From a virus: a stretch of DNA of 53,744 bases. This document shows, piece by piece, positions 4,301 to 35,232 of this stretch. The position numbers were made by a program, and so were the translations under genes. Position 1 is the first letter of the stretch. Each line of letters opens with the position of its first letter. Under the pieces are notes generated by a model. That model did no database searches. It was not told where the DNA came from and saw nothing but the letters and a program-made list of their open reading frames with translations. The stretch is taken from positions 1-53,744 of IMG/VR virus record IMGVR_UViG_3300025590_000010. One strand, given 5' to 3'.

Positions 4301-7300
4301 TTATAACTTAGCTGACTCATCGTAGATCTCTTTGAGATACTCAGCGTACTCTATGAAGAGGTCTATCTCAGCGAAGTTGTAGTCCTCTAGCGATCCTGTT
4401 ACACCATGCTGCTCTTTCATTATCCTAGCAGCCTCACGGCGGATCTCTTTATTGCCACCCGCCCTGTTAGCTTTACTTGCTAGGCGTAGACGCATAGTCT
4501 CTGCACCACCGTAGCCTTCTTCCATCAAGCCAGTGATCTCTTTCTTAGCATCCTTCATGACTTGCTTAAGCATACGGCGGCGTCCTGTTAGGTTTGCCTC
4601 CTTAAACATAGCGCTATTGATAAGCTGCTGTGTCTTACGCTCAAGTGCTGGTGCAAGCATACCATTGAGAGCCTTATCATATGCAGGTATCTTGCTACGC
4701 TCATTAGCCTGCCAAGGAAACATCTCAGCCATAGAGTATGCCTTCTCAGATGCTGTGCGTCCTGGCTTTACAGTGATACCAAAGATACGAGCAAAGGGGT
4801 TAGCGTCATAGATCTCACCCTCACGTGTAGCAACACGAAGCTCCTCACCTGTGATAGTGTCTGTCTTATCAATGAATGCCTCAAGGATATTATCCACATA
4901 CTTTGTAGCAGACTGACTTAAGACGTTGATACCCTCTGCCTGACGTACATCCTTAGCAGTGTCCGTACCCATGGCAAAGCCAACGATCTTATTCACTGCA
5001 TCTAATGGGCGTGTAGCACCAGCCAGTAAGTTACCCGCTACCTTATATCCACCCTCAAGTGATGCACCACGTGCGCCCTCATCAGCATTGAACATAATAT
5101 CTAGTAGATTGTTAATGTCATTACCAAACTGTACGTCACGTGCAAGCTGGCCTACAGCTACCTGTGTGCCTAGCTCTTGGAGAAGTTCCCTGGGTACATC
5201 CTCGCCATTACGCTTCATATTAAAGATGCGCCCTGCTGCCAAGAACAGTGAGAAGGGGAAGGTGTTACGAGCGTCTACAATAGTACCACCACCTACTTCG
5301 ATCTCATTGTAGGCTAATCCTTTAGCACGGCGCTCTGTGTCAAACTCTGCTGCTGCATAGATAGCTGCAGTACCCACAGTCATACGAGCAAAGGCTTCAC
5401 GCTCTGTAAGGTCTGTACCTTCCTTCTTAATGGTACGAACCATGAACTTACCAAGCTGTTCAGGTGCAGCCAGAGGTGACCACTGATATGCTGTAGCAAG
5501 TACGTTGTTAAAGAAGCGTCCAAAGGGTAGGATAGTACCTAAGCCTGGTGTGTTAGAGAACTTCTCTGCAAGACCAGCTGTTGTTTCAAGCAACTCACGT
5601 CCTATGCCCTCTTGGTTCTTAGTGTAGTCCTTAGAGAACACAGACCGTAGTGTGCCATCAAGTGCAGCACCCAGTACATCCTCATCAATAGGCTTACCAG
5701 ATACAAGCGCATCCTTGAGTGTAATACCTTTCTCAACACGTAGATACTTATCAAGCTCTGTCATGAACATCTGAGACTTAGTAAAGCTATCCTGTACACG
5801 TACACCAGTGATCTGATTGGCAGCTGTAGTAACAGCCTCAACGTTTTTAAACAGCTTACTGTTAGGGTCAATGCCATAACGCTTAGATGTACCCTCAACA
5901 CCACCAGATAGTGTCTCAAATAAGATCTTCTGAATGTCACTGTTCTTATCCAAGAACTTCATGTACTCATCGTGAGTAGTGAAGGGGTCTAACAGGTTAC
6001 GGATCTTCTGTCCCTGTATTGCAGTTAATGCCCGTGCTTGGCGGAACGTTTTCTCTGCAGCCTTAGGGTTATACGCCATCTGTCCCAGCCCTTTAAGACC
6101 TAGTGTAGATGCGTTAAACAAGTCAGCCATAGTCTGACCTGCATAGTACTGGGAGAAGCCTGCAATGTTCAATGCTGTTGTAGCAGGGGATGAAACAAGC
6201 AAGCGCTTCCACACAGACTGACCATACTTATACTTGTCAGACTTGTTCATCTTCTGTAGTTCTTCACCTACAGCTTCCTTAGCGTCAATGTCTTCTACAG
6301 CTGCGTCAATCTTATCCTTAGATGCAACGATACCAGCGTCTAGGGTTTTACGTACCTGAGACATAACGTTCAGGGTCTTACCTGCCTCGTTAATTCTCTT
6401 GGCAAGCATGTCACCCATCTTAACTTTAGAGCTACCTAATTCACCGAACTGAATACCTGAGTACTTTAACATACCCTCATTGATACGGTTAAGCTCTTCC
6501 TCTGGGATGTAACGCACAACATTTGTGATCACATCTGAGATAGTCTTATTACGATCAATACCATAGCCAGAGTCTTTAAACACTTTAGCTAGACCGCCTG
6601 CACCATCTTCACCTAGCATAATGTTCTTGATAAGATCAGCTGGCATAGCATCTGCTGTGTAGGCACTACCCTTAGCCACCTTCTCATTCCATGAGTCAAC
6701 ACTCTCCATGATAGCCTTGGCTGCTTTACTTGACTGCTCCTTGTTGAGGGTAGGTGCAGCCTCTTCAATCACAGCATTAGATAGCTTCTCTAAAGAAGAT
6801 CCTGTATCCTCTAAGCCAGATGCACCACGGAACTTACCAAAGCCTAACTGTGCAGCACCAGCAACACCACCAAGTAGTGATGCAAAGCCTGTCTGCAGAG
6901 CGCTGTACTCTTCCTGTGCGCCTACTTCAAGCATGACATTCTGTGCCATGACATCCTGTAGTACAGCAGCAGTAGCATCTAGTGCAACAGTCTGCTTTAG
7001 GGCAGTCTTAGCGCCTGCAGCGAACAGTTCTTTCTGTTGCATAAGCATAGCATCTTTAGCTAAGGCACGGCGTCCCTCACTAGCTACACGCTTGGATACT
7101 TCATTGTATGCCTTACCTGCTTGGCGGGTAGTCATACCCTTCTCAACAGCCCTACGTGCAGCCTCAATACCAGCACGTTCACCAGCCTCTTTAGCTGCAG
7201 CCTTAGTAGCACCACTCTTAAGTGCCTCTCTACCAGCCTGACGTACAGATGCCTTGATGAGTTGCTTACCAGTAACACTAAGACCAGCTGCACCAGCACG

Positions 7301-32982: not shown

Positions 32983-34584
32983 TCAATACCCGAATGATGG
33001 ATCACTAGCCTGAAAGCCAGTGCGTTGTTTTGCTGGGTTGTAATCCCATATGCTGCTACGTGGACGTGTCATAATACCATATCTTAGAGCGTCATATAAG
33101 TGATCCTCTGCATGAGTATCAACATCTTCTGGGTTTCGCTTGTCCAGAGGAATACTAGGTATCTGTGCAATAGTGTTTGTACAGTTATCCATGAATACAA
33201 GTTGAGGCTTCTCAGTGAACTCATCCACCTTTAACCGTCTATGTATCTCGTTCTTACCTGCGACACGTGAGCCTCTTGACCTGTCAGACGGACGCCAACG
33301 ACACCCTTTTTGATTCATCTGCTCTGCCAAGCTAGGCCCAGTGTCGCCACGGTTGTGCCATAAAGAACTATCTAGCACCCCGTATCGTATTGTACCATCT
33401 TTTGCTTCTGCTTCAAGTATTAAATCTGCTAAATCAGAAGCTGTAACTTTAGAGACGTACATCTCACGGTACACAATGACTTGCTCATCAGGTGCTACAG
33501 CAAACCACAGAACACCAGTGTAGCTACCATAACCGTAATCGCAAGACCTAAACTTTGCCCAAGAGTCAGGTACATCGAATGCGTCCACGACATGTATCTT
33601 TCGGTCAAACTCTGGAAAAGCTGCACCCTCGTTAATGTCCCAGTTACCTTCAAGTAACTGCTTGCGCTGATGCTCTGGAAGCGAGAGAAGCATTGCTTCA
33701 TAGTCGCCAGCGTCAGCCAAGTACGGATTGTCGAATAGAGAGGCTGGAATAAAGCGTCTTTTAAATAGAGGCATACCTTCTTTACTATGCCCTTTAGGGA
33801 AAGTAATCGTGTCGCCTGTTTCAATATTAGTTGCCCAGAACGGCTTACCACCGATTGCAGGGTCAATAAACATCTTTTTAACCCAAGCATGTCCTGCTCC
33901 TCCGGGGTTTGTTGTTGCTCTCATGTATAGGCCAAGATTGGAAGCATGTGCAGATCTCAAGCGAGACCTCATATAATCCCAAGCGTAAGGGCTAGACCAT
34001 TGCGTAAGCTCATCGAATCCAATCCAGTTAAAAGCCTGACCTTGATACCGTGTGACATCCGTGTCTTTATCAAGATAAGACATCCAAAGTCTGCCACCCT
34101 GAGGAGAAGTCCATTGCGATTTACGTTCCGACCACTTAATACCAGGTATTGCACGGGGGTATAACTCCTGACTCTTTTGTATAAGTTCTCTTAGTTCTTC
34201 CGTAGTATGTCGGACTAGCAACCCTGAGAAGTTAGGGTCATTCAGTCCATGTAGAGGGTCAGCCAACATGGCGTAGCTCTTACCTCCACCAGCTGCTCCA
34301 CCATAAAGTACCTCACGTTCTGACGCACTCAAGAAGGATGTCTGAGGGCCAGGGTTAGGTTTGAATACTACCTGCTGAGCTTCCTCAACATCATACTCAG
34401 GCGCTTTAACTTGTGCAGGTATACTCTCTACAACAGTAGCAACAGGCTCCTCAATACTTTTCGTTAGGGTCTGTGTAGGCTCCTGCGCCTTTCCTTTCGA
34501 GCTTTTCGATTTGGTCAAGCGTTTCTTCGAGCCACTTGGCAAGCTTACGTTTAATTGTAATTGCTTTTCTACGTTTTTGCTCAA
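32983..34584 (-). CDS. terL: Terminase large subunit
   Basis: A 533-aa packaging motor. Walker A is GGAAGGGKS (residues 95-103), Walker B is NWIGFDE (186-192, catalytic Glu 192), and TTNPGG (about 224-229) is the coupling motif. The C-terminal RNase H-like nuclease shows CDYGYG (D349), GVLDSS (D405) and a late THAEDHLYDALRYG Asp. The first 70 residues are a Lys/Ser/Thr-rich extension that begins at TTG 34584 and overlaps the HTH gene by 134 nt. The next in-frame ATG lies within Walker A, so a non-ATG start is required somewhere in this extension. Confidence 0.92.
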   Translation of the reverse strand: MSKNVEKQLQLNVSLPSGSKKRLTKSKSSKGKAQEPTQTLTKSIEEPVATVVESIPAQVKAPEYDVEEAQQVVFKPNPGPQTSFLSASEREVLYGGAAGGGKSYAMLADPLHGLNDPNFSGLLVRHTTEELRELIQKSQELYPRAIPGIKWSERKSQWTSPQGGRLWMSYLDKDTDVTRYQGQAFNWIGFDELTQWSSPYAWDYMRSRLRSAHASNLGLYMRATTNPGGAGHAWVKKMFIDPAIGGKPFWATNIETGDTITFPKGHSKEGMPLFKRRFIPASLFDNPYLADAGDYEAMLLSLPEHQRKQLLEGNWDINEGAAFPEFDRKIHVVDAFDVPDSWAKFRSCDYGYGSYTGVLWFAVAPDEQVIVYREMYVSKVTASDLADLILEAEAKDGTIRYGVLDSSLWHNRGDTGPSLAEQMNQKGCRWRPSDRSRGSRVAGKNEIHRRLKVDEFTEKPQLVFMDNCTNTIAQIPSIPLDKRNPEDVDTHAEDHLYDALRYGIMTRPRSSIWDYNPAKQRTGFQASDPSFGY

Positions 34585-34867
34585 CTTCGATTCTTTTCTT
34601 TAGGCCTGTAAAAGATATAGTTCTACCTGTCTCTTTACTTAGCCAGGCTGCTACCGCACGATAACTATACTGCTTAAGGTGACGCTTTGCAAGCTCTAAA
34701 GCCTCAAGTTCTGACTCAATAGGTAAAAGCACCCTATCGTTCTCTGGATCTACCCTGTAGCCAAACGGTACTTTCTTAGCAATCTTAACTATAGGATGCC
34801 ATTCTTTTGTGTGGTTCTTGGGTGGTAACGGTAACTGCCAGAACCCTAAGTCTCTATCAGGTATTAT
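34451..34867 (-). CDS. HTH-type packaging-region protein, apparent AUA start
   Basis: The frame encodes about 138 aa: IPDRDLGFWQLPLPPKNHTK..., then WHPIVKIAKKVPFGYRVDPE, then a helix-turn-helix region (AKRHLKQYSYRAVAAWLSKE...SFTGLKKRI) and a Lys/Arg coiled coil. I recognise the whole as a conserved phage family encoded before the terminase large subunit. No ATG, GTG or TTG exists upstream of GTG 34732, which would discard about 45 conserved residues. AGAAGG lies 9 nt before ATA ATA at 34867-34862, overlapping the upstream stop. Initiation at AUA, or -1 slippage from the upstream gene at CCAAAAG, are the options. Coding assignment firm; start uncertain. Confidence 0.72.
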   Translation of the reverse strand: MIPDRDLGFWQLPLPPKNHTKEWHPIVKIAKKVPFGYRVDPENDRVLLPIESELEALELAKRHLKQYSYRAVAAWLSKETGRTISFTGLKKRIEVEQKRRKAITIKRKLAKWLEETLDQIEKLERKGAGAYTDPNEKY

Positions 34868-35232
34868 TCGTTTGAACCTTCTTTTGGTGGCAGATAGAAG
34901 ATGCCTCCACCAGATGTTACGTCTATTTTGTCTACCTTACCAAGTCCTGCACGATCTAGCAAGTCCTTAGCTGCAATCATCTTCTCTTTTATGCCTAGCT
35001 CAGTAGGGTCATACAGAGCACCTACCATAGACATAGCAGCTTTAGGAGCAACACGTGCAAAGTAAGTACGTGTCTTCTCACCGATCTCATCCTTGAGAGC
35101 TTCAACAATAGCCGAAGTGCTAGATGCAGGGTCATAACCTGCAAGCTTCTTAGCTGCTACTGCATCACCGTTAGCCTCATCAAAGAGTACCTCTAGGAAG
35201 CGCTGTTGCTTTTCTGTTAGTGCTCTAGCCAT
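34864..35232 (-). CDS. terS: Terminase small subunit-like protein
   Basis: A 122-aa protein. The N-terminus LTEKQQRFLEVLFDEANGDAVAAKKLAG is the helix-turn-helix opening of many phage small terminases, followed by KDEIGEKTRTYFARVAPKAA and a KEKMIAAKDLLDRAGLGK helix. The C-terminal GGGIFYLPPKEG tail is also typical. It recognises phage DNA and regulates the large subunit. It lies upstream of the HTH protein and terminase large subunit in the same transcript. Confidence 0.8.
   Translation of the reverse strand: MARALTEKQQRFLEVLFDEANGDAVAAKKLAGYDPASSTSAIVEALKDEIGEKTRTYFARVAPKAAMSMVGALYDPTELGIKEKMIAAKDLLDRAGLGKVDKIDVTSGGGIFYLPPKEGSNE

Follow-up and report, generated by a model that had tools for sequence, protein, structure and literature searches.

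Start codons of the AUA type are usually regarded as isolated oddities, and infC of E. coli starts with AUU. AUA starts as such are already known from infC and ccpN of S. aureus; conserved AUA or AUU starts were described for these genes and for cvfC1, and an AUA reporter reached about 10-30% of the AUG level (PMC13009471). Near-cognate starts are weak in E. coli, with ATT at about 0.3% of ATG according to the value of Hecht 2017 as cited in PMC10666635. This weakness counts against initiation at AUA as proposed here, despite the higher level in S. aureus. For gene pairs overlapping by four nucleotides (-4 nt, ATGA), coupling of termination and reinitiation is well described (PMC10666635).

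The window, i.e. the whole stretch of DNA analysed, is an IMG/VR virus record of 53,744 bases with the packaging cluster on the minus strand (Table 1). The genes are ordered TerS-HTH-TerL-portal and have homologues in HMO-2011 and CRP phages. This packaging region assigns the window to a marine phage of the HMO-2011 type. An earlier note on this DNA had located an HTH gene between the terminase subunits, which was supported by PHROGs matches of the upstream and the downstream neighbour. Its coordinates and description of the HTH frame, 138 open codons and a stop, were also right: codons 1-45 contain no ATG, GTG or TTG, and the first standard start is GTG 34732 (codon 46). The AGAAGG-type site reported upstream was found as AAAGAAGG, whose duplex with the anti-Shine-Dalgarno sequence has about -5.6 kcal/mol. 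It precedes a tandem ATA-ATA, the first ATA of which shares its TA with the TerS stop. The TTG start of TerL lies inside the HTH gene. No phage-encoded tRNA was found in the window. Apart from the HTH gene, one further start-less AUAA junction was seen in the window, an apparent chance frame at 4304. The stops of the late cluster are mostly TAA; outside it, the genome also contains TGA stops and genuine ATGA junctions.

Table 1 Features around the TerS-HTH junction of the window
Feature	Position	Strand	Remarks
TerS (terminase small subunit)	34864..35232	-	ATG start, TAA stop; phrog_2538, E 3.5e-5 (PHROGs); ORF list
CCAAAAG, proposed -1 slip site	34881..34887	-	unconserved
Shine-Dalgarno-like AAAGAAGG	34877..34884	-	within TerS codons K-E-G; 9 nt 5' of the AUA
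AUA, proposed start codon of the HTH gene	34865..34867	-	-1 relative to the TerS stop (AUAA, -4 nt overlap)
TerS stop TAA	34864..34866	-	overlaps the AUA
HTH packaging-region gene	34451..34867	-	138 aa with the proposed AUA start
TerL (terminase large subunit)	32983..34584	-	TTG start, TGA stop; phrog_979, E 3.9e-58

The HTH gene very probably starts at the AUA, with initiation probably coupled to the termination of TerS and a low yield of a packaging protein. Relatives were collected by tblastn (HMO-2011-type phages) and by IMG/VR scans, yielding several hundred loci, 453 of which were classified. One contig may recur among loci from different scans; hence distinct haplotypes were counted as well (148 ATA-type, 186 standard-type). 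A standard start close to the TerS stop is lacking in 186 loci (148 haplotypes, including the isolate CRP-207), and ATA was found at position -1 in all of them, so that the non-canonical codon is invariant among the start-less relatives. This strongly supports AUA initiation, one of the options of the earlier note. The TerS stop of these loci is TAA (169) or TAG (17) and never TGA, giving the overlaps ATAA or ATAG. In each of the other 267 loci, an ATG, GTG or TTG lies no more than about 30 nt from the TerS stop. In the whole set of 453 loci the HTH start thus lies within about 30 nt of this stop, a proximity as in coupled pairs, and exactly at -1 in the ATA-type. As read from these loci, the family rule for the HTH gene is to start at the TerS stop. 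Comparison of the start region further revealed that the ATA is lineage-wide: of the 159 loci from the window and CRP-207 clades whose TerS stop was usable, every one has ATA at -1 and lacks ATG, GTG and TTG in the following five codons. Where codons are inserted 3' of the TerS stop (L050, L058, L109, L140 and CRP-207 type), the ATA remains at the stop. Two loci (L402/L403) have ATG at exactly the -1 position together with a TGA stop (ATGA).

A single G to A exchange would turn ATGA into ATAA, and a sequencing or consensus error, as considered in the earlier note, or a recent loss of the start in a decaying gene could produce the same picture. Against this, ATA occurs in 148 distinct haplotypes, in nearly identical copies recovered from many different metagenomes, and in the complete genome of the cultured phage CRP-207. 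Among the listed HTH-bearing matches to AAAGAAGGNNNNAACGAATRA (scan ending in GAATRA), ATAA was read in 112 of 112, i.e. in at least 112 copies, and ATGA in none. A scan for a hidden ATG version with ...ATGNTNCC gave 85 matches, none of them with the HTH gene beside it. No relative was confirmed among host-genome copies. As the HTH gene is also under purifying selection, which argues against decay, the probability of error or decay is negligible.

For codons 2-45, pN/pS was 0.195 (35 representatives), as for a translated region under purifying selection, and the ATG-started homologues have the same N-terminus. Counted from the AUA, a conserved Trp is residue 9-11 in 26 of the 28 representatives, compared with mostly 8-10 when counted from the ATG of the homologues. 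These results bear on a start at GTG 34732 or another internal standard start, with the N-terminal third unmade. GTG 34732 is the first standard start in frame, and GenBank calls an ORF of 52 aa in CRP-207 at an internal ATG. However, most relatives lack this GTG, at which the earlier note had seen a possible normal start, and the preceding 45 codons are the ones under selection and shared with the ATG-started homologues. An internal start is therefore extremely improbable.

The sequence in front of the AUA is conserved as well. In 28 ATA-type representatives the TerS codons AAA GAA GGN NNN AAC xxA are synonymously frozen, with K=AAA and E=GAA of the Shine-Dalgarno codons in 28/28; elsewhere in TerS, Glu is encoded by GAA and GAG at 99 : 72. 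Mean Shine-Dalgarno pairing, uncorrected for relatedness, was -6.0 kcal/mol in the ATA-type and -4.0 kcal/mol in the ATG-type. Local RNA folding around the start gave no clear common feature. Two bases of the ATA are set by the TerS stop, which leaves its first base, together with the lack of TGA, as free evidence. Because of the ATA in 186/186 loci, the frozen flanking TerS codons and the pN/pS of codons 2-45, the arrangement at the TerS stop is, on comparative grounds, not due to chance.

It was also considered whether a near-cognate neighbour is used (the second ATA of the window, ATT in CRP-207, or GTA) and not the AUA overlapping the stop. In the window and CRP-207 clades the codon before a conserved Pro is ATA, ATT, ATC or GTA, and CRP-2 has ATG there. 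But this codon varies synonymously and between Ile and Val like an internal residue, and no near-cognate is present at this place in L376-L382 and L362/L547. Furthermore, codon insertions shift it away from the Shine-Dalgarno site, whereas the stop-overlapping ATA never shifts. In the L378-L382 and L362/L547 types the AUA is the only AUN or NUG near-cognate between an in-frame stop and the conserved protein; the AUA of L376/L377 has a single AGG before it in this interval. A start at the neighbouring codon is thus very improbable.

As a further option, programmed -1 slippage close to the TerS 3' end, at CCAAAAG, would fuse a minor share of TerS to the HTH protein, which would then lack a separate start codon. 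The HTH frame of the window is -1 to TerS and free of stops in the 23 codons 5' of the ATA, and a Shine-Dalgarno-like motif lies upstream, as at known -1 frameshift sites. In the relatives this arrangement is not kept. The heptamer is replaced in many of them by CCTAAAG, CCCAAAG, GCTAAAG or TCGAAAG, and in 51 of the 186 loci (44 haplotypes) an in-frame stop lies 3 (32 loci) or 6 codons (19 loci) 5' of the ATA, so that a slip at CCAAAAG would terminate and a slip upstream is excluded for these loci. With the stop at -3, only AAC or AAT followed by GAA, CAA, GTA or TTA remain before UAA, and none of these is slippery. The ATA-type loci as a whole therefore show neither a conserved slippery heptamer nor a destination frame free of stops 3' of the slip site. 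In addition, the HTH gene of the homologues is in frame 0, +1 or -1 to TerS, each time with its own start; judged by these frames, HTH is an independently started gene, and independent initiation is the state of the family. The frameshift proposed by the earlier note is thus very improbable.

Under AUA initiation, translation from AUA 34867-34865 would yield the HTH protein as a separate product. Ribosomes ending TerS would halt at UAA, in a register that differs from that of the AUA by one base, and, aided by AAAGAAGG, the same ribosomes or new 30S subunits would restart at the AUA. The initiator tRNA would read this codon inefficiently, and little HTH protein relative to TerS would be formed.

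The history of the ATA was examined with an unrooted tree of 117 representatives. Parsimony gave four changes for the ATA state, at least two of which are forced by well-supported branches. The four ATA groups are the window and CRP-207 clade, L376/L382, L547 and L246/L248/L249. ATA-type sequences are nested among ATG-type sequences, and hence AUA has probably replaced ATG and not the reverse. By kinship, the 186 ATA loci represent about four independent events, and an independent-pairs test contains too few pairs to reach significance. In the CRP-2-like group, members with an ATG two or three codons downstream mostly have GAG-TAA at the stop, giving GTA, while those that lost the ATG have GAA-TAA, giving ATA; the difference is synonymous for TerS. 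In the whole set, the Glu codon before the TerS stop is GAA 176 : GAG 0 in the ATA-type and GAA 26 : GAG 154 with standard starts. Two loci (L217 and L219) have ATA at the TerS stop plus an ATG two codons later and are possible evolutionary intermediates. A sister of the window and CRP-207 ATA clade (L375) has GTA at the stop and appears to use a TTG two codons later.

Canonical starts are NTG, so that such a start can form a -4 nt overlap with a UGA stop only. Among the near-cognates of AUG, AUA alone allows this overlap with UAA or UAG. Thus, if the AUA is used, it lets the phage retain a UAA or UAG stop and yet restart at -1. ATGA is only one transition away and is absent from all ATA-type loci of the sample, which suggests selection keeping the HTH start weak or, alternatively, that TerS resists UGA. 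The comparison makes a case that weakness of the start is under selection. More tentatively, AUAA and AUAG may form a distinct, recurrently evolved overlap, a weak termination-coupled and perhaps IF3-sensitive start setting the ratio of packaging proteins.

The TTG start of TerL (34584) is conserved in the window clade and the CRP-2 clade and aligned with the ATG of HMO-2011, CRP-1 and ctYwJ313. With the AUA of the HTH gene, two successive packaging genes after TerS thus have weak starts, consistent with a lower need for HTH protein and TerL than for TerS.

For the HTH protein, an AlphaFold model built without rows from phage records (pLDDT 83) has a beta hairpin, two helices and a long C-terminal helix. 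The model supports the HTH label of the earlier note, although its fold matches, to serine-recombinase DNA-binding domains, are weak (PDB E about 0.5 or worse). No PHROGs family and, by sequence profile, no PDB relative was found for the protein, and Pfam PF11985 (phage Mu Gp27) scored 17 bits at a curated cut-off of 28 bits. In CRP-3 (L675 1965-3824) a homologous HTH domain (profile match, residues 12-93) is fused N-terminally to TerL, whose residues 108-619 are 54% identical to the TerL of the window. CRP-738 and CRP-235 gave weak tblastn matches to HTH inside TerL. The fusion in CRP-3 and the gene order point to the HTH protein as a partner of TerL in packaging, where it would most likely act as DNA-binding accessory of the motor.

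Among the isolates, HTH homologues are located between TerS and TerL in HMO-2011, CRP-1, CRP-2, CRP-9, CRP-13, CRP-207, CRP-345, CRP-603 and ctYwJ313. Except for CRP-207, the gene of all these HMO-2011 and CRP phages starts with ATG, located at or next to the TerS stop in HMO-2011 ATGACTAG, CRP-9 ATGAGTAA, CRP-13 ATGCCTAA and CRP-2 TAAGAATG. The GenBank annotation of CRP-207 contains merely 52 aa of the HTH gene, from an internal ATG. A gene kept without ordinary start codon in more than 100 distinct sequences is missed or truncated by standard gene finders, and an AUA start would explain its omission or truncation by annotators. Several further observations concern annotation. In ctYwJ313 (L086, 2984-3380) the HTH gene has a normal ATG after the TerS stop, and GenBank has a short internal ORF. 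The TerL annotation of CRP-207 looks too short. In the pelagiphages HTVC115P (L676 1247-1504) and HTVC103P (L677 1222-1491), short HTH homologues between TerS and TerL are annotated as hypothetical (gp79 and gp85, respectively).

Across a deep clade of an abundant group of marine phages, a conserved gene thus seems to depend on AUA, having switched from standard starts on separate occasions. If this is general, gene callers limited to ATG, GTG and TTG overlook such genes in other genomes. As CRP-207 is in culture, the AUA start is directly testable.

In the open-access literature, to which the search was largely confined, no phage gene with an AUA start was found described. A recurrent, family-wide phage AUA start with AUAA overlap therefore appears to be undescribed in the literature searched. 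The packaging region corresponds to that of HMO-2011-type phages (PMC9038755; CRP-207, CRP-2, HMO-2011) in the order TerS-HTH-TerL-portal and in homologous proteins. HMO-2011, CRP-1, CRP-2, CRP-9, CRP-13, CRP-345 and CRP-603 use ATG for the HTH gene, whereas the window has ATA. The HTH match lies within TerL in CRP-3, CRP-235 and CRP-738 (fusion confirmed for CRP-3), in contrast to the separate gene of the window. The likeness to phage Mu Gp27 and serine-recombinase DNA-binding domains is weak in profile and fold and serves as a lead. As in ATGA pairs (PMC10666635), the start is at -1 of the upstream stop and the neighbours probably belong to one complex. ATGA pairs need UGA, whereas the AUA overlaps UAA or UAG, and the coupling proposed here is read from this geometry. 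With the S. aureus starts the locus shares the conserved non-canonical codon, a good Shine-Dalgarno site and a yield thought to be kept low (PMC13009471). The cases of S. aureus and E. coli are bacterial chromosomal genes, whereas a phage packaging gene is concerned here. Unlike in those cases, the phage AUA shares bases with the stop of the gene before it, and it seems to have taken the place of ATG on more than one occasion.
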